Part shown: positions 29,219 to 49,630 of the stretch, one piece after another
Layout: each line of letters opens with the position of its first letter
How positions within the stretch are numbered: the first letter of the stretch is position 1
NCBI RefSeq assembly: GCF_000719865.1
Contig: NZ_JOID01000004.1
Coordinates: 186,001 to 250,000 of the forward strand
From: Streptomyces albus subsp. albus
GTDB taxonomy: Bacteria > Actinomycetota > Actinomycetes > Streptomycetales > Streptomycetaceae
DNA length: 64,000 bases
Reading direction: 5' to 3'
Made by a program: the position numbers and the translations under genes
Notes under the pieces: model-generated
Seen by the model: the letters and a program-made list of their open reading frames with translations, nothing else
What the model was told of the DNA's origin: nothing
Databases searched by the model: none

Positions 29219-29232
29219 ACCCCTGGACAGTC

Positions 29233-29444: not shown

Positions 29445-30695
29445 ATGATCGAAGTGCCCACGCAGATCGGCCGGTACACGGTCGAGCGCGAACTGGGCGC
29501 CGGCGGCATGGGCCAGGTCTATCTGGCCTACTCACCCGGCGGCGACCCGGTCGCCGTGAAGGTGATCCGGAACGACAGGCTGGACCAGGCGACGAGAGCC
29601 CGCTTCGAGCGCGAGGCTCTGATCGCCCGGACGGTCGTCGGGACCAACCGGGTGGCCCGCTTCCTCGACGCCGATCCGTATGCCGACCAGCCGTGGATGG
29701 CCGTCGAGTATGTGCCCGGCCGCACCGTTCAGGCGCACGTGGACGATGCCGGGGTCCTCCCCGTGCCGCTGGTCGCCAGTCTCGGCGCGCTGCTCGCCGA
29801 GGGCCTGGAGGCGGTGCACGCCGTCGATCTGCTGCACCGCGACCTCAAGCCGCAGAACGTCATGCTCGGTGAATACGGCCCGATACTGATCGACTTCGGG
29901 CTCGGGGCCTTCATGGACGCCGGCAAGGACACCCTCACCCAGGTGGGCGTGATCATCGGTACGGTGCGCTGCATGCCCCCGGAGCAGGCGCTCGGCCGCT
30001 CCCGGGTGAAGGCCCCGGCCGATGTGTACGGCCTGGGCACGGTGCTGCTCTACGCGGCGACCGGCCACTATCCGTACGAGGCCAACGGCTGGCCGGCGAT
30101 CGTCGCCAGGGTGACCGACGAGAAGCAGTCGCCGGACCTCTCCGGACTACCCGGCGCGCTCGCCCCGTTGATCTCGGGGATGCTCGCCCACGCGCCGGAG
30201 GAGCGCCCCGGGCTCCCGGAGGTCACCGGTCAGTGCGTGGCTCTCATGAGGGCGGCGGGACTCACCCCGGCCGAGGCGCGGCACGCCCTGATCGATGCCA
30301 CGGCCCTGCCCGGCGGGAAGACCGGAGCGCACGGCCGGGCGGCGCCTTCCCCCGGCGTGTGGGAACGCCTCACCACGCGGTACGCCGAGGCCCTCGCCAT
30401 GCACACCGTCGCCGTGGACGAAGAGGGCCAGGACAGCCCGCTGGACAGTCCGGCCCCATCCGGCCCGGCCGAGGACGAGGCGCAACCGCCTTCCGAAGGA
30501 CCGGCGTTGACCGGGAACGCCGACGGTCGGTCCGCCGCCGCGCCGCCGGACGAGGGCGGCGGGGACGGCCGGCCGGAGCCCCGTCCCACGGACCGGACGC
30601 CGCCCGCGCCTCCCCGCAGACCCGGCCGGAAACCGGCCTCGCAGAAGGTGGCCGAGGACCTGAGGGCCAGGTACGCGATGCAACCGGCCCTCTGA
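29445..30695 (+). CDS. Cytosolic Ser/Thr protein kinase
   Basis: 416 aa. All Hanks kinase landmarks are present: GAGGMGQVY glycine loop (18-26), Lys39 (VAVKV), HRDLKPQN with Asp133, DFG at 150-152, and the APE-equivalent PPEQ. After the kinase domain (to about 275) comes an acidic, Pro-rich, disordered tail ending RPGRKPASQKVAEDLRARYA. No membrane segment or extracellular sensor exists, unlike most Streptomyces kinases. It lies 142 bp upstream of the large defence operon in the same direction. Kinases accompany some phage systems (PglW in Pgl), so it may regulate the operon proteins, but this is not proven. Confidence 0.85.
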   Translation: MIEVPTQIGRYTVERELGAGGMGQVYLAYSPGGDPVAVKVIRNDRLDQATRARFEREALIARTVVGTNRVARFLDADPYADQPWMAVEYVPGRTVQAHVDDAGVLPVPLVASLGALLAEGLEAVHAVDLLHRDLKPQNVMLGEYGPILIDFGLGAFMDAGKDTLTQVGVIIGTVRCMPPEQALGRSRVKAPADVYGLGTVLLYAATGHYPYEANGWPAIVARVTDEKQSPDLSGLPGALAPLISGMLAHAPEERPGLPEVTGQCVALMRAAGLTPAEARHALIDATALPGGKTGAHGRAAPSPGVWERLTTRYAEALAMHTVAVDEEGQDSPLDSPAPSGPAEDEAQPPSEGPALTGNADGRSAAAPPDEGGGDGRPEPRPTDRTPPAPPRRPGRKPASQKVAEDLRARYAMQPAL

Positions 30696-30837
30696 CGGAG
30701 CGGGCGGGCGGCACCCGGATGCGGTGCCGTCGTCAGCCTGCGGCAAGCGGCAACGGATCAGGCGGCGACCGCGTGATGGCGCCGCCCGGCACGGCCCGTG
30801 ACGGGCGGGAACTACCCGGAGGAAGTGGTGGGGCGTT

Positions 30838-33800
30838 ATGCAGGACATCCCGGATGACATAGGGACGGAGCCCGTGGCGGCCGGTGGCGTCACCATGGTG
30901 CAGGGGACCCTCGACTCGGCCGGGGCCGGGACCGGGACCCGGAGCGACACCCATGCCGAGACCCAGACCGGGACCCGGACCGGGACCGAGGCCGACCAGG
31001 CCGCGGCGGACACCACCACCGGCGCCCCCTCCGCGGCCGCGCCGCGCTCGGAGAGGCCCCGGTTCGCCCCCGGCTCCCAGGTCCTGGTGCGCGACGAGCA
31101 GTGGCTGGTGAAGAAGGTCGCCCGGACCGCCTACGACGGCTGGATGGTCGAGGTCACCGGCGTCTCCTCCCTGGTGCGCGGCACGGACGCCGTCTTCTAC
31201 GAGGAGCTGGACCGGATCGAGCCGCTCGACCCGGTCAGGACCCGGCTGGTGCCCGACCCTTCCCCGAACCACCGCAAGGCGCGCCTCTATCTGGAGGCCG
31301 TCATCCGCAAGACGGCCCTGCCGCAGACCGAGCACGGGCTCGCGCTGGCCGGCAACTTCCTCATGGACGAGCAGACGCACCAGCTCCGCCCCGCCGAGCT
31401 GGCCCTGTCCATGAAGAACCCCCAGCCCCGCATCCTCATCGCGGACGTGGTGGGCCTCGGCAAGACCCTGGAGATCGGCGTCCTCCTCGCCGAGCTGATC
31501 CGCCGGGGCCGCGGCGAGCGCATCCTCGTGGTGACCCCCGCGCACGTCCTGGAGCAGTTCCAGCGCGAGCTGTGGACCCGCTTCTCCATACCGCTCGTCC
31601 GTCTCGACTCCACCGGCATCCAGCGGATCCAGCAGGACATCCCGGCCGGCCGGAACCCGTTCGCCTACTTCAAGCGGGCGATCATCTCCGTGGACACCCT
31701 CAAGAGCGACGTCTACGCCCACCACCTGAAGAACACCGACTGGGACGCCGTCGTCATCGACGAGTCCCACAACCTGGTCAACCGAGGCACGAAGAACAAC
31801 GACCTGGCCCGTCTCCTCGCCCGCCGCACCGACGCCCTCATCCTGGCCTCCGCCACCCCGCACAACGGCGACGGCGAGTCCTTCGCCGAGCTGATCCGCA
31901 TGCTCGACGAGGCAGCGATCGCGGACGCCTCCGCGTACGACGTGAAGGACCTGGGGCACCTCTACATCCGGCGCACCAAGACGGACCGCGAGGTGCGCGA
32001 TTCCCTCAAGGGCGCCTGGGCGGACCGCGGCCCGTCCCGTCCGGTGCCGGTCCGGGCCACCGCGAAGGAGCGGGCCGTCCTGGAGGAGCTGGCCGCGCGC
32101 TGGATTCCCCGCGACCCGGCGGCCTCGTCCGTGTGCGCGGACCCGATGGTCGCCTACAACCTGCTGAAGGGCTTCCTCTCCTCCCACCGGGCGTTCCAGG
32201 ACTCGGTCGCGGCACGGGTCAAGACCCTCGACAAGCCCCTGAAGGGCCGCAGGAACCAGGACCCGGCCGCGCTGGAGGCCGCGCGCCGGACCGAGCGGGA
32301 GGCGATTTCCGACCTGGCCCGCCTCGCGGGCGGCCTCGGCGACGACGACTCGTCCAAACTCGACGCCTTGGTCGCGCAGTTGAGGGAGACCGGTGTCGGG
32401 CCCGGGTCGGACACCCGGGTCGTGGTCTTCTCCGAGCGCGTTCCCACCCTGAAGTGGCTGGCCGAGACGGTCCCGGCCCGGCTCGGCTTCCCCGTGACGC
32501 GGCGACTGGAGCCGGAGGAGCGGAAGGCGAGGCCGTGGAAGGCGTACGGCGGCGCCGTCGAGGTCATGCACGGCGACGCCACCGGTGAGGACGAACAGAA
32601 GCGCATCGTCGAGGAGTTCGGCCTGCGCACCGCACCCGTCCGGCTCCTGTTCACCGGCGACGTCGCCTCCGAAGGCGTCAACCTGCACCAGCAGTGCCAC
32701 GAGCTGATCCACTACGACCTGCCCTGGTCGCTGATCCGGATCGAGCAGCGCAACGGCCGGATCGACCGCTACGGCCAGGAGACGAGCCCCCGGTTCCGGG
32801 CCCTGGTGCTCACCGGCGACGTGGAGTGGCGCACCGACGACAAGACCGGTGAACCCCTGTGGCTGGACGACCGCCTGGTGGGCGCCAAGCTCCTCGCCCG
32901 CGAGGAGGAGGCCCACCGCATCGAGGGCAGCGCGGAGGCGGTCACCGGCATCTACCGGGCCAAGGAGGAAGATGAGCGGCTCACCCGCGACCTCATAGCC
33001 GGCCGTACCGTCGAGGAGTCGATCGAGAAGTCCTCGACGGGCGGTGGCGCCAAGGCCCTGCTCGGCCGGCTCATGGGCAACGTCGGGTCGAAGAAGCCGA
33101 CGGACGACATCCCGCGCGCCACCGTGCCCGGCCTGTTCGGCCCGGGCGGCGGCACGGCCGCGACCGCCGCCTACTTCGACGAGGCCCTCCGCCAGGTCTG
33201 CCACCCCATCAGCCCGGACATCGCCCTCAAGCTGCGGCGCGAGGAGGACGGCACCCTCGCCTTCGAGCCGCCGCCGGACCTCCTCCACCGGCTCAAGGCC
33301 CTGCCCAAGTCGTATCTGACCGAGCAGCACATCCTGCCGACCGCCCAAAGGGAAGGGCGTATCCGGCTCACCTTCGACAAGGGCCTCGCCGCCAGGCGCC
33401 TCAAGGCGGCACGCGAGGACTCCGCGAGCCAGTGGCCCAACGTCGGTTACGTCTCCGACGTGCACCCCGTGCTGGACTGGGTCACCGACAAGGCCCTCGC
33501 GGCGCTCCGCCACGACGAGGCCTTCGTGCTCGCCTTCGACCCCGACAAGGAGAAGGCGGCCGAGATCGACCCGGCACTGCCCGGCGCGCTCGACGGCCCC
33601 GTCTACCTCCTCCAGGGCAGCTACTCGAACAAGGCCGGGCGTCCCACCGTCGTCGAGTGGATGGCCGTCACCGGCCTCCCCGGCGCCCCCCGCGTCCACC
33701 GGATCGACAACGCCTTCCTGGCCGCCTGCGGGGTCGGCCCCGCCATGCCCGGCCGCGCCGCCCCGGTGAACCGCGGACTCCTCCAGTCCCGGGTGCCGGA

Positions 33801-34188
33801 CGCGGTCGAGGAGGCGCGGCGCTTCCTCACCGACCGCCAGGCCGAGTACGCGCGGCAGATCGACGCCGTCCTCGCGCCGTACGAGAAGCGCGTCACGGAG
33901 TGGCGGCAGGCTGCGCTGTTCACACCGGCGGCCCGCCGTTCGCGGAAGGCCAAGCAGGACGTCGACCTCACGGCGAGCAGGCGCACGACGCTGATCCGCT
34001 CCCTGCGGACCTCCGGCGCCCCGCTGCTGCGGCTCCTCGCCGTCCTCGAACCGCTCGCCGCCACCCCGGCACCGCCCACCGCCTTATCCGCCGCGACCGC
34101 CGAATCCGCCGCGACCGCCGAATCCGCCGCGACCGCCGAATCCGCCGCGACCGCCGTGCCCGACGCCGGGGAGACGACCGAACGATGA
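30838..34188 (+). CDS. SNF2-family helicase, DrmD-like (operon gene 1)
   Basis: 1116 aa. After a low-complexity leader (1-75) comes an SH3-like segment (RFAPGSQVLVRDEQWLVKKV). The helicase core has Walker A ADVVGLGKT (202-210), IDESH (Asp308), SATPH, and the C-terminal motifs GDVASEGVNLHQ and RIEQRNGRIDRYGQ (about 608-650). Length and motif spelling fit DrmD, the SNF2 translocase of class 1 DISARM. It should use ATP to move along DNA. ATG 30838 is preceded by GGAGGAAG. The C-terminus carries four 18-bp repeats. Its stop overlaps the methyltransferase start (ATGA). Confidence 0.85.
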   Translation: MQDIPDDIGTEPVAAGGVTMVQGTLDSAGAGTGTRSDTHAETQTGTRTGTEADQAAADTTTGAPSAAAPRSERPRFAPGSQVLVRDEQWLVKKVARTAYDGWMVEVTGVSSLVRGTDAVFYEELDRIEPLDPVRTRLVPDPSPNHRKARLYLEAVIRKTALPQTEHGLALAGNFLMDEQTHQLRPAELALSMKNPQPRILIADVVGLGKTLEIGVLLAELIRRGRGERILVVTPAHVLEQFQRELWTRFSIPLVRLDSTGIQRIQQDIPAGRNPFAYFKRAIISVDTLKSDVYAHHLKNTDWDAVVIDESHNLVNRGTKNNDLARLLARRTDALILASATPHNGDGESFAELIRMLDEAAIADASAYDVKDLGHLYIRRTKTDREVRDSLKGAWADRGPSRPVPVRATAKERAVLEELAARWIPRDPAASSVCADPMVAYNLLKGFLSSHRAFQDSVAARVKTLDKPLKGRRNQDPAALEAARRTEREAISDLARLAGGLGDDDSSKLDALVAQLRETGVGPGSDTRVVVFSERVPTLKWLAETVPARLGFPVTRRLEPEERKARPWKAYGGAVEVMHGDATGEDEQKRIVEEFGLRTAPVRLLFTGDVASEGVNLHQQCHELIHYDLPWSLIRIEQRNGRIDRYGQETSPRFRALVLTGDVEWRTDDKTGEPLWLDDRLVGAKLLAREEEAHRIEGSAEAVTGIYRAKEEDERLTRDLIAGRTVEESIEKSSTGGGAKALLGRLMGNVGSKKPTDDIPRATVPGLFGPGGGTAATAAYFDEALRQVCHPISPDIALKLRREEDGTLAFEPPPDLLHRLKALPKSYLTEQHILPTAQREGRIRLTFDKGLAARRLKAAREDSASQWPNVGYVSDVHPVLDWVTDKALAALRHDEAFVLAFDPDKEKAAEIDPALPGALDGPVYLLQGSYSNKAGRPTVVEWMAVTGLPGAPRVHRIDNAFLAACGVGPAMPGRAAPVNRGLLQSRVPDAVEEARRFLTDRQAEYARQIDAVLAPYEKRVTEWRQAALFTPAARRSRKAKQDVDLTASRRTTLIRSLRTSGAPLLRLLAVLEPLAATPAPPTALSAATAESAATAESAATAESAATAVPDAGETTER
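34087..34158 (+). repeat. Four tandem 18-bp coding repeats
   Basis: TCCGCCGCGACCGCCGAA repeated four times (the last copy diverges at its end) encodes (SAATAE)3-SAATAV at the C-terminus of the SNF2 helicase. The repeat number can probably change without shifting the frame. Confidence 0.9.
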
Positions 34189-37100
34189 GCACCGACTTCG
34201 ACTCCTTCTCCAACCGCGGCGAGTACCTGTCCGCGCACTACTTCGCCGAGCAGCTCGCCGACGGCCTGAAGAAGGGCGTCTTCGCGGCCTGGACGGACCG
34301 CGAGTCCGACGAGAACGACCAGCGGACCACACCCCGCGCCGCCCTCCGCGGCCTGCGGCCGGTCTATCTCGACGAGCAGTACCGCGGCTTCTTCGCCGAG
34401 CGCGCGAAGGAGGACGCCGAGGACGACGAGTACCCCTCCAACGAGGGCTTCGAGCAGCGCCGCAACACCTACGGGGACGAGGAGTGGCGCGAACGCGTCA
34501 CCGCCTGGCACCGCAAGGTGCTCGCCGCCCTCGGCTACCCGGACGCCGACCCGGAGCCCGACGCCGACGAGGCGGACCGGGAGGCCGCCTCCGCCCGGCG
34601 TGAACTGACCGTCCACCGCGCCGGCCGCGACCACACCCTCAAGGTCGCCTGGCACGGCGACGGCATCGTCGCCGTGGACTGCGGCTGGTCAGCGAGCAAC
34701 GACACCGCCCTGGACACCGACGCCTACGGCCGGCTGCTCCACCCCCTGCGGGCCGGGAGCGGCGAGACCTACGGGTCGGGGCACGCGCTCGCCACCTGGC
34801 TGTTCCAGAGCGAGCTGGGAGGCGAGGGCGGCAGCGCCCCGCGCTTCGTCCTGCTGCTCTGCGGCGGCGTCATCGTCCTCGCCGACCGGCAGGTGTGGGG
34901 CGAGGGCCGCTACCTGGCCGCGAACCTCGACGCGGCCCTGGAGCGCCACGACCGCCGGCAGACCGGCGAACTCGCCACCATCGCCGGGCTGTTCAGCCAT
35001 GACGCGCTCGCCCCGGCCGAGGACGGCAAGGGCCCGGCCATCGACGCGCTCGTCAAGGAGTCCCGCGACCACGCGGTCGGCGTCTCCGGCGAGCTGCGCC
35101 AGGGCCTCCAGAAGTCCGTCGAGATCATCGCCAACGAGGTCCTGGCCCGCTTGGATAAGACCGGCGTCGAACCACGCGCTCTCGAAACCCCCGGCGACCC
35201 CTTCGCCCGGCAGCTCACCCGCGAGGCGCTGCGCTACCTCTACCGGATCCTCTTCCTGCTGTACGCGGAGGCCCGCCCCGAACTGGGCATCCTCCCGGCC
35301 GACGACGGCACCTACGAGGCCGGCTACTCGGTGGCGCGCCTCCGCGAACTCGTCTCCCATGAAGCTCAGTTGACGGACGAGACCGCCCGCAACAGATTCC
35401 ACTTGTACGAGTCCCTGGACCTTCTGTTCGACAAGGTCAACCACGGCCACCGGATCATCGGCACCGAGCCGTGGGACGAGCGTCCCGGCGACGACGAGGA
35501 GACGCGCAAGCGGAAGGCCAAGCAGCGCAGCGAGGACCGGGGCCTGCGCTTCGAACCCCTGCGCAGCGATCTCTTCGAACCCGCGGCGGTGACGCTCATC
35601 GGCCGCGGCACCCGCGACCCGCGCCGCGACGGGGAGAGCCAGGACGGCCGGGCGGCCCGGCTCGACCTGCGGCTGCGCAACCACGCCCTGCACCAGGTGC
35701 TGCGCCTGCTCACCATGAAGAAGGCCAGGCGGCGCGGCGAACGCGGCGGCTTCATCTCGTACCGCAACCTCGGCATCAACCAGCTCGGCGCGGTCTACGA
35801 GGGCCTGATGTCGTACACCGGCATCATCGCCGAGGAGGAGCTGTGCGAGGTCGCCAAGGGCGGCGACCCGGAGAAGGGCTCCTGGCTGGTCCCCTCGCAC
35901 CGTCTCAAGGAGTACCCGGAGAACACCTGGGTGCAGTACGACGAGCGGGACCGTGAGGAGAAGGGCCTGCGCGGGCCGAAGAAGTACCCGCCGGGGACCT
36001 TCGTCTACCGCCTGGCGGGCCGCGACCGGGAGACCTCGGCCTCGTACTACACCCCCGAGTCGCTGACCCGGGTCACGGTCGAACTGGCCCTCAAGCACCG
36101 CCTCGACCAGGAGAAGGACGCGGAGGGGAACGTCGTCCGGACCCGCGCGGCGGAGCTGCTGAAGTACCGCATCTGCGAGCCGGCGCTCGGTTCCGGCGCG
36201 TTCCTCAACGAGGCCATCAACCAGGTCGCGGAGGAGTATCTGCGGCGGCGGCAGGACGAGCTGGGCACGTCGATCCCGACCGCCCAGGCCCTGACGGAGA
36301 AGCAGAAGGTCAAGGCGTACATCGCGCTGCACAACGCGTACGGCGTGGACCTCAATCGGACCGGTGTCGAGCTCGCCGAGGTGTCGCTGTGGCTCAACAC
36401 CATGCACCCGGGGATGCGGGCGCCGTGGTTCGGCCTCCACCTGCGGCGCGGCAACTCGCTGATCGGCGGCAGGCGGGCGGTGTACGCGGCGGAGGACGTC
36501 GCGCCGTGGAAGGGCAAGCCCCAGTGGCTGAGCGGGAAGGACACGCAGGCGCCGACGCCGCTGCCGTTCCGCGACAACGAGGCGGGCGGCAAGCCGCAGC
36601 CGCTGCCGGAGGGGGCGGTGCACCAGTTCCTGCTGCCGACACCGGGCTGGGCGGCCGTGACGGGCGCGAGCGGTGACGCGAAGAAGCTGCTCGGGCAGTT
36701 GGCGGGGGAGGGCGTCGAGCAGCTCAGGCAGTGGAAGAAGGGCATCCTCCAGAAGCCGAAGCGGCGGCTGAACGCCAAGACGGGCGAGCCGATCCGCGAC
36801 CGCAAGACGGGCCGGGAGGCCACGTCCCAGTACACGAGGCTGCGAGACGCGGCGCAGCGGGCCGAGTTCCTGTGGAAGCTCGTCGTCAAGCGGATGGAAC
36901 TGTCGGAGCGGGAGATCGCCCGGACCATCGATGTGTGGGGCGCGGACCCGGAGAAGGACGAGGAGTTCGCCTTCCTGCGCCGGGAGGCGGGCGGTGCGGC
37001 GGAGGACAGTGCAACCCGGCTCTCGAAGGAGAAGGTCTACGCCGAGCTCTTCAGGGCCGTCGGATCGCCGTACTGGCGGCTGAAGCAGGTCATGGACGCC

Positions 37101-39929
37101 TGGTGCGCGCTGTGGTTCTGGCCGACGGGCGAGGCGTCGCTCCTGGACGGCAGCGCGGCACAGTACGACCCGGCGGAGGTGGTGAACGCCACCGAGGTCG
37201 TGAAGGAGCTGTTCGGGGCCGGAGCGGTGGCCGGTGGCGGCGGCGAGCCGGAGGTGACGGACGCGGGGGCGGCCCGGCGGCCCGAGGCTGGTCCGGCATC
37301 CGGTTCGGTGGCTGAACCAGAGCCTGAACCGGCGGCTGAACGGGTCAGGCCGAACGCCATCCCGGCCCAGCGTTTCGCCGAGCAGACGGCGCTGTTCGCG
37401 ACGAGTTCCGGTGTCCAGGAGTCTCTGCTCTTCACGGACTCCGACAGCGGTGACGGCGAGCCGCTCATCGACCGCAAGGAGATCGGCAAGCCGGCACTGC
37501 CGCGCCAGAGGAAGCCGGCGGCGAGGCGGGCCCCGCGCGTCTGGCGGGACGCGATCCCGCTGGCGGACCTCGACGACTGGATCGACTTCCTGGAAGCCAT
37601 GCTCGGCACCGCCGACGTGGACCAGCCGGACCTGATCACCGAGTTCGACAACCTCGAAGCACTCAAGGACTTCGAGGACAACCTTCCGGGCCTGCTCGGG
37701 ATGGATCACAAGGAGGACCCGGAGGATCGCTTTCCCTGGATGCGCGTGGTCAAGGAGATCGCGGAGGGACAGGGTTTCCTGCACTGGGAGTTGGACTTCG
37801 CGCTGGCATTCGCGGAAGGCGGGGGATTCGACTTGCAGGTGGGGAACCCGCCGTGGGTGCGCCCGGAATGGAAGGAAGATCCCGTGCTCGCGGAGCATGA
37901 ACCGTGGTTCATGCTTGCGGAGAGGCAAACTGCGACTGAAAGGCAACGTCGGCGCGCGGCCGCACTTGCCGGGGAGGCTGCCTCCTACGCTGTGCAGGAA
38001 GCAACGACAGTAGTGACGATGAGTGACTACCTGGCGGGGCCGCAAACCTATCCGCTAGTTGCCGGAAGTCAACCGGATCTGTACCGGGCCTTCATGTGTC
38101 AGACGTGGGACCACGCCGCCCTCGGTGGCATGGTCGGACTCCTTCACCGAGACAGCCACTTCAGCGGGAAGCGAGAGGCAAATCTCCGAGAGGCGGCCTA
38201 TAAGAGACTTCGCGTGCATGGCGGATTTTTCAACGCGGGGAATAGATTCTTCCCCGTGCCCGTCAGTAGAGCCCTCACCTTTGGTGTGCATATCTACGGC
38301 GAGTCGGGAGAGATTGGTTTCGACCATCTGTCGTGGTTGTTCTCCGCGGACGTGCTGCGCTTGTCCGGCCAGGACGACGGGTCGGCTCCCGATCCCGGAG
38401 TTAAGTTCGGCAACAGTTGGGATGCGCGTCCTCACCGCAAGCGAATTGTCCGGGTAACCCCGGAAGTGCTCACTCAATGGCAGCGTCTGACTGGTGAGGA
38501 CGGGCGTCCCACCACAACGCGGTTGCTGTCTCCAGTAGGGACTACTGAATCCCAGGCAATCGCCGCGCTCGCCGAATATCCAGTGCGACTCGGGGATTTC
38601 ACTCCCAGGATTTGCAGCGGGTTCCACGAGAGTGGAGCGAGGGCGTCCGGACTGATTGATCACAACCTGATGGCTGGGCAGAAGACGAGGTTTCGTCCAG
38701 AAACCTGGGACTCGGTTATTCTTAAGGGTCCCCAACTCGGCGTCTCTAATCCGCTGCTCAAAAGTCCCGGTTCAGTGCCCGGCGAGATGGAGCCAGTTGA
38801 CCTGCGCTTGATCGATAATGCCTACGTCCCTGGGACCGAGTACGTCAGAACGGCAGTCAAGGAAAAGTTCGCCGAGTCCCAAGACAGGTGGTTCGACCTA
38901 GCGTACTTCGAAGATGCGCTTGGTGATTCCCGTCGGCTCTTGTCCATCCGCCAGTCGATCGCTGAGGCAAGGGAGATCGAACTTGGGGCGGTGGCCGATA
39001 GTGAGGTCCGCGACCGGTTGCGTGTCGAGTCGACTCGCCTGTACTCGTCTTTTTACCGGATCGCTTGGCGAGAGATGATCTCCTCCAACCGTGAGCAGGT
39101 GCTCTGTGCGTCCCTCGTCCCACCTGGTCCTACGCATATCCACGCAGTGCGCAGTGGAGCGCTTCTCGGGAACCGGCACACGGTCCTCTGGGCTGGTTTT
39201 TGGTCTTCCATGCCGCTCGATTACCTGCTCCGGACCATCGGAGTAGGTCATCTCGATGTGTCTGGAGCGCGCAACCTGCCGGCTCCGGCGCCAGACCATC
39301 CTCTTGCTCCTGCGTTGCTCCTTCGAACACTCCGGCTCAATTGCCTTACTGATGCGTACTCCGATATCTGGGAGGAATTGTTCGATGCCGCCTGGGCCGT
39401 TCATGAGCCATGGGCCCGTGTCTGGCCACTGATGACCACTCAGCTTCATGAAGTCGGTCCGAACTGGTGCCGTAACACGCCGCTCCGAACTGAGTACGCG
39501 CGCCGATCCGCGCTTGTGGAGATTGATGCTCTTGTCGCCGTGTGGTTGGGGGTGTCGGCTGACGCGCTGGCGACCATGTTCAATTCCCGGCTTCCGATCA
39601 TGCGAGGCTTTGACGAGGTGACCTGGTTCGACGCCGCCGAACGCAAGATCGCCGGTGACCGCTACACGTACGGCCACGGACAAACCAAGGACCACTGGAA
39701 GCAGTTCGAGGCGTACATGGCCGACCCCGCCTTCGCGGCCCACCAGGCCGACCCCGTCAACAACCCAGCCCCCGCAACCCCCGCCCCCGACGGCTACACC
39801 GCGCCCTTCTACAAGGCCGACCGCGAGACCGAGATGCGCGAGGCGCACGCCTACTTCCAGCAGCGCCTCGACGCCGCCGTGGCCGCCGGTGAGTGGGACC
39901 CGGTGCGGCAGGAGGTGCCGAAGCCGTGA
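34185..39929 (+). CDS. Large adenine-specific DNA methyltransferase, Eco57I/PglX/DrmMI type (operon gene 2)
   Basis: 1914 aa. A helical N-terminal third precedes the SAM-binding motif CEPALGSGAFL (about 664-674) and the catalytic NPPW at 1221-1224 (LQVGNPPWVRPEW). Between them lie YYTPESLTRVTVELAL and NAYGVDLNRTGVELAEVSLWL, both typical of this gamma-class N6-adenine family. The C-terminal 600 residues should hold the target-recognition domain. It probably marks host DNA so the partner helicases spare it. Codon use from about 37870 to 39640 is far less GC-biased than the rest. Starts and stops overlap both neighbours by 4 nt. Confidence 0.87.
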   Translation: MSTDFDSFSNRGEYLSAHYFAEQLADGLKKGVFAAWTDRESDENDQRTTPRAALRGLRPVYLDEQYRGFFAERAKEDAEDDEYPSNEGFEQRRNTYGDEEWRERVTAWHRKVLAALGYPDADPEPDADEADREAASARRELTVHRAGRDHTLKVAWHGDGIVAVDCGWSASNDTALDTDAYGRLLHPLRAGSGETYGSGHALATWLFQSELGGEGGSAPRFVLLLCGGVIVLADRQVWGEGRYLAANLDAALERHDRRQTGELATIAGLFSHDALAPAEDGKGPAIDALVKESRDHAVGVSGELRQGLQKSVEIIANEVLARLDKTGVEPRALETPGDPFARQLTREALRYLYRILFLLYAEARPELGILPADDGTYEAGYSVARLRELVSHEAQLTDETARNRFHLYESLDLLFDKVNHGHRIIGTEPWDERPGDDEETRKRKAKQRSEDRGLRFEPLRSDLFEPAAVTLIGRGTRDPRRDGESQDGRAARLDLRLRNHALHQVLRLLTMKKARRRGERGGFISYRNLGINQLGAVYEGLMSYTGIIAEEELCEVAKGGDPEKGSWLVPSHRLKEYPENTWVQYDERDREEKGLRGPKKYPPGTFVYRLAGRDRETSASYYTPESLTRVTVELALKHRLDQEKDAEGNVVRTRAAELLKYRICEPALGSGAFLNEAINQVAEEYLRRRQDELGTSIPTAQALTEKQKVKAYIALHNAYGVDLNRTGVELAEVSLWLNTMHPGMRAPWFGLHLRRGNSLIGGRRAVYAAEDVAPWKGKPQWLSGKDTQAPTPLPFRDNEAGGKPQPLPEGAVHQFLLPTPGWAAVTGASGDAKKLLGQLAGEGVEQLRQWKKGILQKPKRRLNAKTGEPIRDRKTGREATSQYTRLRDAAQRAEFLWKLVVKRMELSEREIARTIDVWGADPEKDEEFAFLRREAGGAAEDSATRLSKEKVYAELFRAVGSPYWRLKQVMDAWCALWFWPTGEASLLDGSAAQYDPAEVVNATEVVKELFGAGAVAGGGGEPEVTDAGAARRPEAGPASGSVAEPEPEPAAERVRPNAIPAQRFAEQTALFATSSGVQESLLFTDSDSGDGEPLIDRKEIGKPALPRQRKPAARRAPRVWRDAIPLADLDDWIDFLEAMLGTADVDQPDLITEFDNLEALKDFEDNLPGLLGMDHKEDPEDRFPWMRVVKEIAEGQGFLHWELDFALAFAEGGGFDLQVGNPPWVRPEWKEDPVLAEHEPWFMLAERQTATERQRRRAAALAGEAASYAVQEATTVVTMSDYLAGPQTYPLVAGSQPDLYRAFMCQTWDHAALGGMVGLLHRDSHFSGKREANLREAAYKRLRVHGGFFNAGNRFFPVPVSRALTFGVHIYGESGEIGFDHLSWLFSADVLRLSGQDDGSAPDPGVKFGNSWDARPHRKRIVRVTPEVLTQWQRLTGEDGRPTTTRLLSPVGTTESQAIAALAEYPVRLGDFTPRICSGFHESGARASGLIDHNLMAGQKTRFRPETWDSVILKGPQLGVSNPLLKSPGSVPGEMEPVDLRLIDNAYVPGTEYVRTAVKEKFAESQDRWFDLAYFEDALGDSRRLLSIRQSIAEAREIELGAVADSEVRDRLRVESTRLYSSFYRIAWREMISSNREQVLCASLVPPGPTHIHAVRSGALLGNRHTVLWAGFWSSMPLDYLLRTIGVGHLDVSGARNLPAPAPDHPLAPALLLRTLRLNCLTDAYSDIWEELFDAAWAVHEPWARVWPLMTTQLHEVGPNWCRNTPLRTEYARRSALVEIDALVAVWLGVSADALATMFNSRLPIMRGFDEVTWFDAAERKIAGDRYTYGHGQTKDHWKQFEAYMADPAFAAHQADPVNNPAPATPAPDGYTAPFYKADRETEMREAHAYFQQRLDAAVAAGEWDPVRQEVPKP
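37870..39640 (+). other. Compositionally foreign segment inside the methyltransferase gene
   Basis: Within this ~1.8-kb part, many codons end in A or T and AT-rich words appear (for example GGATTTTTCAACGCGGGG near 38222), whereas sequence on both sides has almost only G/C third positions. The reading frame is continuous. The segment begins just after NPPW and covers the expected target-recognition region. Confidence 0.7.
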
Positions 39930-42900: not shown

Positions 42901-45900
42901 CTGGGAGCAGACCGTCCACCCCGCCCTGCTCGGCCAGTGGGACGGGCAGAAGTGCCCCGCCTACCGCTGCCGCACCGGACGCCTCGTCGCCGGGACCCGG
43001 CCGGAGGGGCTCGGCCGGCACCAGCGCGACCGGGACTACCGCGAGGACTACTACCGCAGGCTCTACCGCAAGGCCGGCACGTACCAGGTCGTCACCGCCG
43101 AGCACACCGGCATGCTCACCCGGCCCGAGCGGGAGCGGGTCGAGGCGGCGTTCCGCGACGGCAGCGGGTTCAAGGACCCCAACGTGCTCTCCTGCACCCC
43201 GACCCTGGAGATGGGCATCGACATCGGCGACCTGTCGGCCGTCGTGCTCGCCGCGCTGCCCCGCCGGCCCGCCAACTACGCCCAGCAGACCGGTCGCGCG
43301 GGCCGGCGCACCGGCAACGCCTTCCTGCTCACCATCCCCGACCGCAGCCGCCGCGACCTGTACTACCTGGACCAGCCGCGGGAGATGATCGCCGGGCGGA
43401 TCGTGCCGCCGGGCAGTCATCTGTCGGCCATCGAGATCCTCCGCCGCCAGTACGTCGCCCATCTGCTCGACCTCGCCGCGCGGGGCCGCCTGCGGCGCCC
43501 CGACGGGCAGCCGCTCGCCGCGATCCCGCGCGAGGCGCCCGCCCTGTTCGGGCCCTCCGGCTACCTCGCCGACCTCGTGGAGGCGGCGATCGGCGGCGCC
43601 GCCGGACTCGTCGAGGCCTTCCTCGGCCTCTTCCCCGCCGGTATCACCCCCAAGGCCGCGGACGAGCTGCGCGCCTATGCCGCCGGCGGGCTGCGCGGCG
43701 ACGTCGAGAGAGCGGCACGGCGGTGGAAGCGGGGCGAGGAGGAACTGCGGCGCAGGCTCAACCTCATCGACGAGGCCGTCCATGAGCTCCACGAGGACGA
43801 CGCCGAACAGCGCAGCCGCAAGGCGGAACTCGAAGCGGAGCACCGGGCCGTCGGCAAACGCCTGATGAAACGCGGCCTCGTCACCGCCCAGCAGGCCCTC
43901 TGCGACCTCGGCCTGCTGCCGAACTACGCGCTCATCGACGCCGTCACCACCCTCAACGCCACCCTGTACTGGCCCACCGGGCCCGACCCGGAGACCGGCC
44001 GGGAACGCTTCAAGTCCACGATGCGCCCCTACGAGCGGCCCCGCCGCTACGCGCTGTCCGAACTCGCGCCCGGCAACACGTTCTACGTGGGCGGCTACAA
44101 GCACCAGGTCACCGGCATCGAGATCGGCAGCTCCACCGAACCCGACTGGGCCCTGTGGCGCTTCTGCCGCCAGTGCGGCTACGTCCGCACCGAGAACGCC
44201 GCCGAGGACCGCGGCCCCTGCCCGCGCTGCCACAGCACCGGCATCGCCGATGACGGGTCCTGCCTGCACCAGGTGATCGAACCCACCGTCGTCACCTCCC
44301 GCGGCAAGCGCGACGACGCCCGGATCGGCGACGACAAGGACGAACGCGAGCAGCGCTTCTACACCGTCATCGACGCCGTCGACATCCCCGCGGAGCACAT
44401 CGAGACCGGGGCGTCCTGGCGGCACGCCCGCGAGACCTTCGGCGTCGACTACTCCCGCAAGGCCGTCATCCGGAGGATCAACGTCGGCCCGCTCCGCTTC
44501 GACGCCCGCCCCGAGGACGAACTGGCCGGAAACAGCGTCCGGCTGGCGCCGTTCCATGTGTGCACCGCCTGCGGAGCGGCCACCGCCGACGGCAGACCCG
44601 TCTTCGACCACGACACCGACGCCCTCGACACCTCCGCCGCACGCAACCCGGCCGTCAAGCACCACCAGCCCTGGTGCCCCCTGCGCCGGGGCAGGAAGGG
44701 CACGGAAACGCCGAAGCAGGAACCGGTGCTCCTCGCCCACCAGCTCACCACCGAGGCCCTGCGCATCCTGCTCCCCGCCGCCACCGTGCTCGTCGACGAG
44801 AAGGTCCACTCCTTCCGGGCCGCGCTCCGCCTCGGCGTCGACCGGCACTTCGGCGGCGACCCGGCCCACCTGGACACCACCCTCGCCTCGATGCCCGACA
44901 AGGCCACCGGCGAGAGACGGCACTTCCTCGTCCTCTACGACCGCCTCCCCGGCGGCACCGGCTACCTCGACCGGCTCACCCGGCCCGACGCCTTCCGCGA
45001 CACCCTCGCCGAGGCGCGCCGCGTGCTGATCGCGTGCCCCTGCAAGGACGAGGGGCGCCGCGCCTGCCACCGCTGCCTGCACCGCCACACCGAGGAGCGC
45101 CACCAGGACGACGTCTCCCGTCGCGCGGCCCTGGAACTCGTCAACAGCCTCCTCGGCCCCGTCGACGAGCACGGCCGCCCGGTGAAAGACGACGAGGGCA
45201 ACGCCGTCGACCACTGGCAGGTCGAGAACGTCCCGACCACCGCGGCGATCGGCTTGGACCGGCAGGTCGAATCCGACCTGGAGGCCCGCTTCCTCGCCGC
45301 CCTCCGCACCTGGAGCACCGGGCAGGACGACGCCTCCCTGGAGGAAAGCGGCACACACAGCGGCAACCTGCGATTCGCCGGGGCCGCGACCTGGAGGCTG
45401 ACCGCCCAGCGGGACGAGGAGTTCACCCGCACCGACTTCACCTTCGAACGGACCGACGGCAGCCCCCAGAAGGTCCACGTCTTTCTCGACGGCCACCGCT
45501 ACCACGCCACCCGCGAGCACAACCGCATCGCCGACGACTGCCGGAAGCGGGACGAACTGCGGGCCGGCGGAGCCCTCGTCTTCCAGATCACCTGGGACGA
45601 CCTCGAACTCTTCGAGACGGGCGAACGCGCCCGGGCCCGGCCGGTGTGGCCGCCCTACCGGCGCACCGGACAGGAGGCCGCCAAGGACTGGTACGAGCAG
45701 CTCGGCGGCAACCGCGCCCACCTCGCCGGGGCCGTCTTCGGCAATCCCATCGACACCCTCCTCGGCTACCTCCGCGATCCCTCCCGCACCCGGTGGGGGC
45801 GGCGGGCCGGCGCCCTGGTCGGCGGACTCCTCAGCGCCCCCGAGCCGCTGGCGGAGAACGCCGGCCGCGCGCAGGCGCGGGAGACGCTGCGCGGCGCCCT

Positions 45901-46813
45901 CCGCTCCCTCGCCGAGGGCGGCAGCCCGGCGGCCGGCCTGGAACCGGCCGCCGGGGACGGGGAGATCCTCGTGCTGTCCGCCACCGACGAGCACGGCCTG
46001 GCGCTGCTCTACACCGTCCACCCCACCGCGGGGCCGGACGGGGCCGAGCGAGTCGGCTGGGGCGCCATCGCCGTACTCGACGACCACGACAGCGGCCGGC
46101 TCGGCACCCCCGAACACAAGCTGCGCTGGCGGTCCTGGCTCTACTGGTCCAACCTCCTCCAGTTCCTCTCCTTCACCGGCGGCGACGGCGTGCAGCTCGC
46201 GACCAGCCGGGCCGCCGGCTTCCCCGTGGAGATCCTCCGCGTCGGCGGCGGCGCGGGCGAACTGGAGAGCCTCAGCGGCCGGCTGCGTCCGGAGCCGGCC
46301 GCTGAGGCGGCCGAGGAGGCGGGCCGGCCGGAGCGCCCGGAACCCCCGGCGCGGGCTCCGGGCGGCGAACGTCCGGCGAGCCGCCCGGCCGCGTCCGCCC
46401 CACGGTCGTCCTCGCTGTCCGCCCCGCCGCCCTCCGCCGCCGAGCGGGCCCTCCGGGAACAGCTCCGGGACGCGGCCTGGGACGAGGACATCCTGGGGCT
46501 CCTCGAAGAGGACGAGCCGGACTCCGACCTGACCCGGCTCGCCCGGCACCTGGCCGAACGGGGCAAGAAGGCCCCCGTCTTCGGCTACGAACTCGGCGAC
46601 CGCGGCTGGCCGGCCGACTTCGCCTGGCCCGGCTCCGGCCTGAAGATCGCCGTCGTCATGGACGCCCCCGGCCACGACGGCGAGGAAGGCCGCAAGCGCG
46701 ACGCCGCGTACGCCGGTGACGGCTGGACCGTGCACACGGCCGCCCACTGGCTCGACCACCTCGACACCCTGCTCGACCTGCTCCCCGACACGGAAGGCCC
46801 GATCCGCCGATGA
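39926..46813 (+). CDS. Giant DEAD-box/DUF1998 helicase with C-terminal nuclease-like domains (operon gene 3)
   Basis: 2295 aa. The helicase core has Walker A TGTGSGKTE (about 104), DEFH (227-230) and motif VI QQTGRAGRRTGN (about 1116). Zinc-ribbon Cys clusters sit at about 504, 640, 1414-1433 and 1550. The DUF1998 (MZB) part includes LYDRLPGGTGYLDRL (about 1668) and CPCKDEGRRACHRCL (about 1704). Then come a Vsr-like block (VFLDGHRYHATREHNRIADD, about 1850) and, at the very end, a second one (PADFAWPGSGLKIAVVMDAP, about 2230). It may combine roles split between DrmA and DrmB in DISARM and add DNA cleavage. GTG 39926 follows GGAGG and overlaps the upstream stop. Confidence 0.83.
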   Translation: MRPTLEAEGLKESLLQYLSTTYALTDEGARKALHRFLGDDNSGMFRGPFLRVRTPFVTADPSWETHLDWRRTDGWTPYEHQAAAFERLSSAGGRTPRPTLVTTGTGSGKTESFLYPVLDHCARERAAGRAGVKAVLLYPMNALATDQAQRINGLLTEHPELHKIRAGLYIGDRAATRYGRVFTARSDMQVTPPDILITNYKMLDLLLQRAADAPLWDEADIRYVVVDEFHSYDGAQATDVAMLLRRLASAVGASEKGRPLGRICPVATSATLASGTDEDGLRQLLDVATQVFGTEFPSDAILGEKRLSVDQFVPRADFDPLVPIPSPDELAALPDPTLGEEEFAALAEAVTGSRDTDPHALGEVLKRHPLTSAVLHALDGQVRSVPEVLDLMWRSGAQSWGRTITLRPEVAAKAFARLVALLSVAHDPASAPEMPRPFVQVEVHQWARSVSRLVRGVLPWPKAEFQWDAAGAAESPEGGAAGTAPVTTATAGQNANLFLPAVYCRDCGRSGWAVFTPESDDLDVEVDTHKIRRASVSQDKMRVRNLIAATDGEAMEGSGAAPMDGAGRAAGRADANALSVTGAGQLRVLDGPRRRLRLPDPVADYDPETGGPRLAGADSAFVLVFLGETATTAAEDDWCPACGTRNAIRFLGTGAAALAAASVTQLFTGGELDERQGETKTLMFNDSVQDAAHRAGFVASRSYTFSLRALFKSHLSEDAPTALNDLIADVVAATTDRSTLAAVVPTDLHDVEGVKRLLSGKGRGGDRRTWELIGERFAFEALMEFGFRSRNGRTLELTRTAAAQVRISDPVAAAAIVRAAHTEPYAKGGRLPVPDALDDARYLGFLRIFLERLRTRGAIGHRWLEGYLREAGTSRYHIWGGRPPGMRAFPKGIAAPVFLLNAPKTRSEFDFATGRLSWYERWAQRALGLPREQAAEFWSRLLPALVTAGLLAVRTPEDSGLRIYGLKPGAVDVQLLKDDEVGEAFVRCPSCFWEQTVHPALLGQWDGQKCPAYRCRTGRLVAGTRPEGLGRHQRDRDYREDYYRRLYRKAGTYQVVTAEHTGMLTRPERERVEAAFRDGSGFKDPNVLSCTPTLEMGIDIGDLSAVVLAALPRRPANYAQQTGRAGRRTGNAFLLTIPDRSRRDLYYLDQPREMIAGRIVPPGSHLSAIEILRRQYVAHLLDLAARGRLRRPDGQPLAAIPREAPALFGPSGYLADLVEAAIGGAAGLVEAFLGLFPAGITPKAADELRAYAAGGLRGDVERAARRWKRGEEELRRRLNLIDEAVHELHEDDAEQRSRKAELEAEHRAVGKRLMKRGLVTAQQALCDLGLLPNYALIDAVTTLNATLYWPTGPDPETGRERFKSTMRPYERPRRYALSELAPGNTFYVGGYKHQVTGIEIGSSTEPDWALWRFCRQCGYVRTENAAEDRGPCPRCHSTGIADDGSCLHQVIEPTVVTSRGKRDDARIGDDKDEREQRFYTVIDAVDIPAEHIETGASWRHARETFGVDYSRKAVIRRINVGPLRFDARPEDELAGNSVRLAPFHVCTACGAATADGRPVFDHDTDALDTSAARNPAVKHHQPWCPLRRGRKGTETPKQEPVLLAHQLTTEALRILLPAATVLVDEKVHSFRAALRLGVDRHFGGDPAHLDTTLASMPDKATGERRHFLVLYDRLPGGTGYLDRLTRPDAFRDTLAEARRVLIACPCKDEGRRACHRCLHRHTEERHQDDVSRRAALELVNSLLGPVDEHGRPVKDDEGNAVDHWQVENVPTTAAIGLDRQVESDLEARFLAALRTWSTGQDDASLEESGTHSGNLRFAGAATWRLTAQRDEEFTRTDFTFERTDGSPQKVHVFLDGHRYHATREHNRIADDCRKRDELRAGGALVFQITWDDLELFETGERARARPVWPPYRRTGQEAAKDWYEQLGGNRAHLAGAVFGNPIDTLLGYLRDPSRTRWGRRAGALVGGLLSAPEPLAENAGRAQARETLRGALRSLAEGGSPAAGLEPAAGDGEILVLSATDEHGLALLYTVHPTAGPDGAERVGWGAIAVLDDHDSGRLGTPEHKLRWRSWLYWSNLLQFLSFTGGDGVQLATSRAAGFPVEILRVGGGAGELESLSGRLRPEPAAEAAEEAGRPERPEPPARAPGGERPASRPAASAPRSSSLSAPPPSAAERALREQLRDAAWDEDILGLLEEDEPDSDLTRLARHLAERGKKAPVFGYELGDRGWPADFAWPGSGLKIAVVMDAPGHDGEEGRKRDAAYAGDGWTVHTAAHWLDHLDTLLDLLPDTEGPIRR

Positions 46814-49242
46814 CCGCACGGCTCAGCCTGTACGAGAAGGCCGAACAGGAGCTGTACAAGCTCGACCGCTCGGTCAAGGGCAAGTTCTACGACTTCTGCC
46901 ACCGCTTCCGGCAGAACCCCGACCACCCCGGCCTCGACCTCAAGCCGCTCAAGGGCGACAGCCGCGTGTACCGGGCCAAGATCGACCAGTCCTACCGGGC
47001 GCTCCTCGCCAGGATCGGTGTCGACGGCGACGGCCGCCAGAAGTGGCTCGTCGTCGCCGTACGGCACCGCAGGCACGTCTACGAGGAACTGTCCGTCGCG
47101 ATCAACCGCGTCACCGGGGAGATCGAGTTCGTCGACCTGTCCGTGGTCGGCCAGAGCGTTCTCCAGCGGGCGGGAATGACGCTCACCCCGGCCGAGCAGC
47201 CCGAGGCCGCGGCGGAGCCCGAAACCCCGGCGGAGCCGGAGACGCCGGCCCCCGCACCGGACACGACGCGACCGGCGGCGGCAACGCCCGCGGCGGAGCG
47301 GACGGAGCGGACCGAGCGGACCAAGCAGGCAGAGCGGACAGAGCAGGAGACCGTGCAGGCCGGGCAGGCGGAGCGGGCCGAGCCGCTCCTGGCCGGTCTC
47401 CGCGCGGACGACCTCCGCGAACTCGGCGTCGCCGAGCAGCTCATCGACCTCGCCCTCGCGGTCACCGAGAGCGGTGAACTCGACGCCCTCGTCTCCGGAG
47501 CCCCCCTCCTCACCAAGGACATCCTGTACGGCCTCGCCGCCGGGCTGCCCATCGACGAGGTCCGCAAGGAGATCACCGCCCCGGTCGAGGTGGAACTCGA
47601 CGAGTCCGAGCGGCACGACCTGGACGCGGCACTCGCCCGCACCACCGTCACCACCATCGACGACGCCCTCAAGGACGTCCTCGAAGAGGGCGACTTCCGG
47701 GCCTGGAAGGTCTTCCTCCACCCGGCCCAGGCCAAGCTCGTGGGCCGCCGCTACAGCGGGCCCTTCCGCGTGTCCGGCGGACCCGGCACGGGCAAGACCA
47801 TCGTCGCCCTGCACCGCGTCAAGCACCTCGCCGCACAACTCTCGTCCGGCCACGACAAGCCGATCCTGCTCACCACCTTCACCAAGAACCTCACCACCGA
47901 CCTGCGCGCCCGCCTCGCCTCCCTGCTGGAACCGGAGCAGTTCGCCCGCGTCGACATCACGCACATCGACCAGCTCGCCACCCGCGTCCTCAACGAGAAC
48001 AGCCCGTCCGGCGGCGGAAAACAGCGCGTCTACGACAGCGTCGCCCTGAACATCCTCCGCCAGGTCCTGGCCGAACTCGACGAGCGGCGCTGGGACGCCG
48101 AATTCCTCTACGAGGAATGGGAGCAGGTGATCCTCGGCCAGTCGCTCGGTACCCGCAGGGCCTACTTCGACGCCCGCCGCGCGGGCCGCGGCCGCTCCCT
48201 CACCCGCCCCGACCGCGCCCGGATCTGGAAGATCCTGGAGCAGTTCACCACCCGCCTGGACAAGGACAACCGCGAAACCTGGGCCCAGGCCGCCGAACGC
48301 GCGGCCCGCTTCGAGATGGAGCGCGCCGCCAGGATCGAGGCGCGCCAGGAGTACAAGGAGGACGTCGGCGGGAAGGACCTCATCCACCGCGACAACAGCT
48401 CCGGCATGTACTACCTCGGACACCGCTTCCGGCACGTCGTCGTCGACGAGTCACAGGACCTCCGCCCCGCCCACTGGAAGATGCTCCGCGCCATGGTGGC
48501 CCCTGGCGAGGACGACATGTTCATCGCCGGCGACACCCACCAGCGCATCTACGACCAGCACGTCACCCTGGGCACCGTCGGCGTGCACATCCGGGGCCGC
48601 GCGGCCCGCCTCACCCTCAGCTACCGCACCACCCGCGAGATCCTGAACCGCGCCATGGAAGTGGTGAACCCGAAGAGCGCCCAGATCACCTTCGACGACC
48701 TCGACGACGGCACCGACGACCTCAACGGCTACCGCTCGGTTCTCCGTGGCCCGGCCCCGGAATTCGTCCCGTGCGATTCCTGGGACGACGAACTCGCCCG
48801 GCTCGCCACCGCCCTCCGGACCTGGCGCGAGGAACTCGCCACCGGTGGAACCGACGGCCGGCCGCGCGACCCGCGGGGCAACATCGCCGTCTGCGTCGCC
48901 GACCGCGAAGCCGTCAACCAGGTCATGTACCACCTGGTGACCGAGGCCGGCCTCACGGTCGCCGAACTCACCAAGGAGGGCGTCAAGGGCGACGGCGACA
49001 TCCACGTGGGCACCATGCACCGCTTCAAGGGCCTCGAATACCAGAAGCTCGCCATCGTCGGTGCCCGGGACGGCGTCATCCCCCGCGCCTCCCTGATGCG
49101 GCGGTACCGCGACACGGACCCCCACCGCCTGGCCCGGGAGGAAACCAAGGCCCGCTCCCTGCTCTTCGTGGCGGCCACCCGCGCGCGCGACACCCTGCGC
49201 ATCAGCTGGCACGGCAAACCGAGCCCGTATCTGCCGGTTTAG
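46810..49242 (+). CDS. UvrD/Rep-type helicase with RelE/ParE-like N-terminal domain (operon gene 4)
   Basis: 810 aa. Residues 1-100 look like a RelE/ParE-type domain (LYEKAEQELYKLDRSVKGKF, then VYRAKIDQSYRALLARI and VVAVRHRRHVYEEL). A charged low-complexity linker follows (about 120-195). The superfamily 1 core has Walker A SGGPGTGKT (about 320), VVDESQDLRPAHW (about 544), the Gln-rich TH-Q motif and the motif VI-like LFVAATRARDTLRISWHG near the end. ATG 46810 overlaps the DUF1998 gene stop. It is the last gene of the operon and would unwind DNA in a repair- or degradation-type role. Confidence 0.85.
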   Translation: MTARLSLYEKAEQELYKLDRSVKGKFYDFCHRFRQNPDHPGLDLKPLKGDSRVYRAKIDQSYRALLARIGVDGDGRQKWLVVAVRHRRHVYEELSVAINRVTGEIEFVDLSVVGQSVLQRAGMTLTPAEQPEAAAEPETPAEPETPAPAPDTTRPAAATPAAERTERTERTKQAERTEQETVQAGQAERAEPLLAGLRADDLRELGVAEQLIDLALAVTESGELDALVSGAPLLTKDILYGLAAGLPIDEVRKEITAPVEVELDESERHDLDAALARTTVTTIDDALKDVLEEGDFRAWKVFLHPAQAKLVGRRYSGPFRVSGGPGTGKTIVALHRVKHLAAQLSSGHDKPILLTTFTKNLTTDLRARLASLLEPEQFARVDITHIDQLATRVLNENSPSGGGKQRVYDSVALNILRQVLAELDERRWDAEFLYEEWEQVILGQSLGTRRAYFDARRAGRGRSLTRPDRARIWKILEQFTTRLDKDNRETWAQAAERAARFEMERAARIEARQEYKEDVGGKDLIHRDNSSGMYYLGHRFRHVVVDESQDLRPAHWKMLRAMVAPGEDDMFIAGDTHQRIYDQHVTLGTVGVHIRGRAARLTLSYRTTREILNRAMEVVNPKSAQITFDDLDDGTDDLNGYRSVLRGPAPEFVPCDSWDDELARLATALRTWREELATGGTDGRPRDPRGNIAVCVADREAVNQVMYHLVTEAGLTVAELTKEGVKGDGDIHVGTMHRFKGLEYQKLAIVGARDGVIPRASLMRRYRDTDPHRLAREETKARSLLFVAATRARDTLRISWHGKPSPYLPV

Positions 49243-49630
49243 ACGCGCGCGTTGCCGATCGAGCGGCGGAGGATACGTGCGCCCTCGTCCAGATGCGCTC
49301 CCCCGGCCTGTAGTGCGCCGCGCCCCTCCATATGAACGGAGAGCTACTGGCTGGTGCGGCCCGGGCAGAAGCCGGATGTGCTCGGACGGTGATCTCAATG
49401 AAGGCCGGGGGCCGCTGTGGGGGCACCCACAGCACTTCTGCGGAGACTTCGTCCTGAGCATCCTCACGGGACAGGCGGAAACGGAGTGGTTTCCCGAACT
49501 TCCCGCCGATGAGCACCGGTTCGACTCCAACGACGAACATCCTGGGGTAACCCGGGTAGCCCCGGCCCGCATGCCGGCCCCCCGGTTCCCCGGTGCGTGA
49601 CACCGGGGAACCGGGGCTCTGGCGTCGGGG
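49243..49630. other. Downstream of the defence operon: no confident gene, ends in a terminator
   Basis: Open frames on both strands (for example 49277-49600 plus) lack ribosome-binding sites and family resemblance. Part of 49380-49550 is AT-richer than the surroundings and may be a decayed gene. The strong hairpin at 49580-49616 closes the stretch. Confidence 0.4.
49580..49616. terminator. Strong bidirectional hairpin terminator
   Basis: CCCCGGTTCCCCGGTG and CACCGGGGAACCGGGG are perfect 16-bp arms around a 5-nt loop. It lies between the end of the plus-strand operon and the minus-strand antitoxin-like gene, so it can serve both. Confidence 0.85.

Follow-up and report, generated by a model that had tools for sequence, protein, structure and literature searches.

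Judged by its gene order, homology and catalytic residues, the four-gene operon on the forward strand of the window is an actinobacterial form of ARMADA Type II. The window is the whole 64,000-nucleotide stretch of the Streptomyces albus subsp. albus contig NZ_JOID01000004.1 (positions 186,001 to 250,000) that was analysed. The operon is linked to an upstream gene for a Ser/Thr protein kinase. We consider it fairly probable that this set destroys or stalls phage DNA and that the kinase switches the machinery by Arm phosphorylation.

Gene organization of the operon

The first gene, armA (30838..34188, + strand), encodes a SNF2/BrxHII-like helicase of 1116 residues with the Walker residues K209 and D308. 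It is followed on the same strand by armB (34185..39929), a PglX-like adenine methyltransferase of 1914 residues with G669 in the SAM motif and an NPPW motif at N1221. armC (39926..46813) starts with GTG and encodes 2295 residues of a YprA-family helicase with an MZB/DUF1998 region, K109 and D227, the C-terminal part being a predicted nuclease region. In armD (46810..49242, 810 residues, K329 and D546), a putative RelE-like N-terminus is fused to a GajB/UvrD-like helicase. The joins armA–armB, armB–armC and armC–armD are 4-nt overlaps each. These ORFs, their coordinates and overlaps are as the first-pass annotation gave them, and profile searches bore out the domain types it had read from the sequence (SNF2, adenine methyltransferase, DUF1998 helicase, UvrD helicase).

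The hairpin that was proposed to close the operon does exist, as a perfect 16-bp stem with a 5-nt loop at 49580..49616. Its role as a terminator is uncertain. It starts about 340 bp past the last operon stop and has no T run alongside, so that 'closing' is a loose description of its position. The window gave no matches in Rfam and tRNA scans. A sigma-70-type promoter and terminator scan of 29200–31000 returned none either, and such scans fit Streptomyces poorly.

Assignment to ARMADA Type II

ARMADA Type II was introduced as an anti-phage system of E. coli in a 2025 preprint by Bell et al. (PMC12458937). As described in its main text, the genes stand in the strict order A-B-C-D and encode ArmA, a BrxHII-like helicase, ArmB, a PglX-like methyltransferase, ArmC, a YprA-like helicase with a C-terminal Vsr nuclease, and ArmD, a RelE domain on a GajB-like helicase. 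The E. coli system protects against 13 of 80 phages, requires all four Arm genes and is non-abortive, the cells surviving (PMC12458937). The residues mutated there were K136 and D236 in ArmA, G605 and N971 in ArmB, K110 and D234 in ArmC, and K266 and D454 in ArmD (PMC12458937). The window matches the order of BrxHII-like helicase, PglX-like methyltransferase, YprA-like helicase and (putative RelE)-GajB-like helicase, and all eight mutated residues are identical in it, as they are in each of the 29 aligned kinase-bearing rows. The Tsukamurella set keeps seven of the eight, and its ArmC is split near the eighth.

The comparison was made with the four Arm genes carried by an E. coli plasmid (L118). 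The window protein is 33% identical to E. coli ArmA over 890 columns, 36% over 779 and 29% over 653 columns to ArmB, 30% over 1956 columns to ArmC, and 31% over 630 columns to ArmD, whose N-terminal domain aligns at 25% over 122 columns. These alignments cover most of the length of all four proteins. In pairwise comparison with the window ArmC, E. coli ArmC scores 647 bits, and the DruE encoded beside it reaches 115 bits in its best stretch. The two systems thus share the A-B-C-D order, the domain types, the predicted RelE–UvrD fusion and the eight tested residues, but differ in sequence (25–36% identity) and in the upstream region, where the window has a Ser/Thr kinase with a private tail and the two E. 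coli copies have Druantia III-like genes instead. The earlier description of the operon as a DISARM-related but distinct anti-phage system holds as to the kind of system; its novelty does not, since the set matches the named ARMADA Type II (PMC12458937).

The first-pass annotation had also raised the co-occurrence of the four genes in other genomes, and this we could follow in 75 related loci, found by scanning genome contigs with six peptide patterns from the window's ArmC. All four genes stand in order on one strand in 62 of them (some loci are cut by contig ends), and 3 more hold the order once upstream DNA is fetched, giving 65 of 75. This is far beyond chance. The other ten (L009, L025, L028, L049, L052, L060, L062, L069, L071 and L075) are fragments, remnants, contig-end starts or, for L062, a locus whose upstream DNA was outside the count; L075 holds an ArmC remnant alone, without ArmA or ArmB. 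Among phage records searched for ArmC, one weak partial match was obtained in 50,697, and a phage home for the gene was rejected on this ground.

Linkage of the kinase gene

The kinase gene (29445..30695, + strand) lies outside the coordinates of the first-pass annotation and was missed there. It encodes 416 residues with a Pkinase match at 1e-33, and the kinase motifs are intact (K39, D133 and D150). Its stop is separated from ArmA by a gap of 142 bp, and the gene, which does not overlap ArmA, may have its own promoter.

In 61 of the 62 loci that include ArmA, the kinase is found directly 5' on the same strand, its stop lying 97–273 bp before the start of the conserved ArmA core. The 62nd (L042) is cut by the locus edge, and the fetched upstream DNA shows the kinase. 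The same was observed for L064, L066 and L073, which form a subclade with only 47% identity in ArmC. A kinase directly upstream of ArmA is therefore present in 65 of 65 testable loci from several actinobacterial genera, a figure that describes a close clade and not ARMADA II at large, because the loci were found with the window's own ArmC patterns. All three Streptomyces plasmid copies carry the kinase; in CP146838.1, armA and the kinase lie at the other end of the record because the record was opened inside armB. The plasmid matches in Mycobacterium riyadhense and Rhodococcus jostii, being remnants, are uninformative on the kinase. The genomes of L042, L064, L066 and L073 contain 16, 19, 33 and 33 kinase matches, respectively, and in all four the one next to ARMADA matches the window kinase best. 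In the window's own genome, the runner-up of 20 kinase matches is 47% identical.

Phylogeny and C-terminal tail of the kinase

A quick maximum-likelihood tree was calculated from 65 linked kinases, namely that of the window and those of 64 loci other than L114, together with 35 further kinases, of which 19 come from the window's genome and 16 from four relatives. The linked kinases fall on one side of a branch with an SH-aLRT of 99 against a background that is small and has long branches. From this tree, the linked kinases are one clade of common descent. Kinase-domain distances track those of ArmA, ArmB, ArmC and ArmD with correlations of 0.92, 0.86, 0.90 and 0.93 over 54 rows, compared with a permutation maximum of 0.19, and the correlations among Arm proteins are similar (0.80–0.95); vertical descent alone would yield such a correlation as well. 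The Lentzea ArmC is 70% identical to that of the window and many Streptomyces copies are 62–66% identical. For the kinase, the values in the same alignment are 65% for Lentzea versus 55–57% for the Streptomyces kinases of L011, L013 and L070. With both Lentzea proteins nearer to the window than these Streptomyces copies are, the set departs from a simple host phylogeny.

Beyond a linker of variable sequence, the C-terminus of the kinase is a short conserved tail (residues 395–416, 30627..30692, + strand), helical in the structure model and a putative docking element. Leaving the window aside, 58 of 65 linked kinases carry the pattern R-x(2-9)-[IV]A-x2-[IL]R-x2-YA at their C-terminal end, and 6 more differ from it at one position, which gives 64 of 65 when one change is allowed. 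The linked kinase of L114 is without the pattern. It was not seen in any of the 35 background kinases, of which at least 6 are open at a locus edge, so that not every C-terminus was in view; the complete ones are also without it. The 47 aligned kinases all share R395, R407 and Y410. In the AlphaFold2 model (mean pLDDT 75) the kinase domain is good, the linker 312–389 has a pLDDT below 50 and the helix 398–410 reaches about 70–78. This suggests that the tail is a docking helix for a partner.

These data bear on the view that the kinase is an independent fellow traveller, a signalling or defence gene of its own that moves with ARMADA without acting on it. The separate ORF with its 142-bp gap would fit, the kinase finds its best defence profiles among generic kinase models, for example PD-T4-6 (179 bits), and by the preprint's main text the E. 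coli system works without a kinase (PMC12458937). We nevertheless regard this view as unlikely, given linkage in all 65 testable loci across several genera including the subclade of 47% identity, a single clade with a private tail, and a co-divergence as high as that between Arm proteins.

Copies without the kinase

A query spanning armA-armB-armC, without armD, was recovered over at least 80% of its length in 513 of 5426 E. coli genomes. On the plasmid L118, the ARMADA set stands beside a STY4851-family gene and a DEAD/DEAH gene, which we read as the DruH–DruE pair of the island in the preprint, as far as its main text describes it (PMC12458937). The same arrangement is found in a chromosomal copy close to a tRNA-Phe gene. 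In the stretches shown, neither of these two E. coli copies has a kinase upstream of ARMADA, and a DruE-like gene is found there. The fetched stretch of E. coli ATCC 8739 does not include the ARMADA locus. The Tsukamurella tyrosinosolvens plasmid L117 contains an ARMADA-like set with ArmC in two ORFs and a second UvrD gene downstream; in the upstream stretch shown there is a trio of UvrD, helicase and DUF1998 genes instead of a kinase. For the Microvirga copy 436 bp before armA are in view, and it stands outside the comparison of kinase presence and absence.

As far as the sampled copies go, the kinase appears confined to one actinobacterial branch. It does not belong to the minimal machinery, since the E. 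coli system works without it in the account of the preprint's main text (PMC12458937) and no kinase accompanies the set in the E. coli and Tsukamurella stretches compared here. The words 'kinase' and 'Streptomyces' have no occurrence in that main text, and an ARMADA-linked kinase was not found in the literature searched, including the sections consulted of PMC13192584, PMC10482375, PMC12839542 and PMC12904381. Within the reach of this limited search, we have not found the linked kinase in print and take it to be new.

Comparison with other defence systems

BREX type 2, or Pgl, likewise encodes a protein kinase with an adenine methyltransferase defence system. In the sections of PMC12839542 consulted, PglW has 1400–1600 residues and several domains, compared with the single-domain window kinase of 416 residues. 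At the NCBIfam cut-off for PglW the window kinase is below, with 38 of 990 bits, and PglZ has no match among the scanned genes. Pgl/BREX 2 membership was rejected on the PglW score and the missing partners. A related idea concerns the function of the kinase, which could be an effector or back-up weapon in the manner of PglW that, after infection has been sensed, phosphorylates host or phage proteins and halts growth rather than gating ArmC. A suicidal kinase role was proposed for Pgl in the same sections (PMC12839542). Still, we hold this for the Arm-linked kinase to be quite improbable, in view of the different size and architecture of PglW, the non-abortive E. coli ARMADA described in the preprint's main text (PMC12458937) and the tail, which suggests partner docking. 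MADS also combines kinase and methyltransferase within one defence set, but the matches are below the NCBIfam cut-offs (108 of 460 bits for the MAD6 kinase, 17 of 720 bits for the MAD2 methyltransferase), and membership was rejected by these scores.

Individually, the four genes resemble parts of several systems. Gene 1 matches SNF2 (PF00176) with DrmD as its top defence profile, and gene 2, an Eco57I-type adenine methyltransferase, has type IIG (800 bits) and DrmMI (169 bits) as top profiles. Gene 3 combines a DEAD helicase with MZB/DUF1998 and matches DruE best (304 bits), while the UvrD helicase of gene 4 has GajB (85 bits) as its top profile, equal with a NERD-UvrD profile. With 2023 defence profiles tagging these genes as DrmD, type IIG, DruE and GajB, such loci may be taken for other systems. 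The likeness to Druantia lies in the YprA-family helicase of gene 3, but this protein is far closer to E. coli ArmC than to the DruE adjacent to it. The partners DruH, DruA-D and DruM/F/G are not found in the other four scanned proteins among the matches listed (the best 25 for some). Druantia membership was rejected, the DruE-like similarity being confined to gene 3 and the partners missing.

Class 1 DISARM is similar in having a SNF2 helicase and a PglX-like methyltransferase beside a DUF1998-family helicase. The window set is without a separate DrmB, its DUF1998/MZB region lying inside gene 3, and without DrmC. Neither DrmB nor DrmC is matched as a separate gene among the four Arm proteins and the kinase in profile searches. 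DrmD reaches 274 of 610 bits and DrmA 17 of 999 bits at NCBIfam cut-offs. With scores far under cut-off and these partners missing among the scanned proteins, the operon is not DISARM, and membership in class 1 was rejected. We give next to no credence to a class 1 variant with DrmA and DrmB fused in the 2295-residue protein and DrmC replaced, for which the DrmD and DrmMI profile matches of genes 1 and 2 speak, and against which stand these scores, the absence of DrmB and DrmC matches, and gene 3 itself, which is far closer to DruE profiles and nearest to E. coli ArmC.

Sequence details of ArmB, ArmC and ArmD

The first Vsr-like/PD-(D/E)xK nuclease domain of ArmC (residues 1781–1954, 45266..45787, + strand) is predicted to be active and has the conserved residues E1786, D1837, D/E1855-G1856 and H1860. 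A second nuclease-like domain (residues 2198–2288, 46517..46789, + strand) is predicted to be inactive. Structure matches of both domains are middling, and Foldseek with the ArmC C-terminus gave no match with E below 0.001. The putative RelE-like domain of ArmD (residues 1–118, 46810..47163, + strand) rests on a weak profile match, the N-terminus profile reaching 2khe and 1wmi in the PDB at E 0.0067; Pfam has no RelE match in the 810-residue protein. Both the RelE reading of ArmD and the Vsr reading of ArmC are weakly supported by these searches.

ArmB (ORF 34185–39929) contains at residues ~1060–1085 a lineage-specific linker with a recurring motif of F/W, then LF, then Q-x-S/T, which is absent from the aligned E. 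coli, Microvirga and Tsukamurella proteins. The pattern matches 47 of 69 rows (S in 33, T in 7), the window being among the 22 unmatched. Though variable, the motif is a possible docking or phosphorylation site. A sliding-clamp-type motif in this linker (QTALF and QESLLF at 1067 and 1078) was dropped, as it is not kept in most relatives. The Q-x-S/T element of the linker and a T-rich segment of ArmC (TTA in 44 of 78 rows) are too variable to be claimed as phosphosites, and none conserved across the clade was found among the aligned Arm rows.

Inserts and neighbouring genes

Five of the 72 loci with matches to both ArmB and ArmC have an insert between the two; the window has none. L064, L066 and L073 share a similar, NsnABC-like cassette at this site, within ~4.6–10 kb of each locus. 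Two L066 proteins match NsnA (413 bits) and NsnB (384 bits) of PADLOC and one L073 protein matches NsnC (319 bits), Nsn being what we take to be the Menshen system. The insert of L042 (7970–9906) encodes a HEC-01A/HEC-01B pair (612 and 268 bits, PADLOC); HEC presumably denotes candidates first found embedded in Hma loci. In L062, about 5 kb lie between ArmB and ArmC. The ARMADA operon may have a fixed internal position at which entire additional defence systems are carried.

In the window, a 1138-residue protein that combines an NNH1 domain at its N-terminus with a NACHT NTPase domain (22485–25901, +) is encoded a few kb upstream of the kinase and is possibly another defence gene. HTH_31/DUF5753 regulators are found on both flanks of the operon (28185–29218, +, and 50211–51116, −), the upstream one followed by a DUF397 protein. 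An HTH–DUF397 pair also precedes the kinase in two of the three Streptomyces plasmid copies and is absent in the third. Further upstream, at 17998–21186 (+), there is a 1062-residue protein with a glycosyl hydrolase family 18 domain and a C-terminal DUF6973.

Proposed role of the kinase

For the actinobacterial ARMADA II with its linked kinase we propose the following mechanism. ArmB would mark or inspect host DNA, and ArmA would remodel or travel along DNA. The Arm proteins would attack phage replication DNA. ArmC may load on single-stranded phage intermediates, as for the related DruE, a helicase-nuclease that in the sections of PMC13192584 consulted is loaded onto 3' single-stranded DNA and acts at a late stage of infection. 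ArmC would cut through its first Vsr-like domain, and ArmD would process the products. The C-terminal helix of the kinase, at the end of a flexible linker of ~100 residues, would hold it on the complex. The kinase would self-activate via the activation loop and would phosphorylate an Arm protein, setting the activity threshold or timing of the ArmC attack. Such a kinase-set threshold could keep a helicase-nuclease that is aimed at DNA intermediates quiet in uninfected cells. In its full form, this reading describes a kinase-gated immunity of five components, in which a tail-docked, dedicated kinase phosphorylates an Arm protein and so licenses ArmC, as a built-in safety switch of a YprA-family defence. 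For this full form we see even chances.

According to the sections of a 2026 review consulted, the restriction mechanism of ARMADA, DISARM and Druantia is unknown (PMC12904381). How these systems restrict phage DNA yet spare host DNA is unsettled, and a dedicated kinase with a private tail offers a direct handle on that threshold question. If the proposed reading is true, the pairing of protein kinases with adenine-methyltransferase defences would have occurred at least twice in actinobacteria, in Pgl and in ARMADA II.
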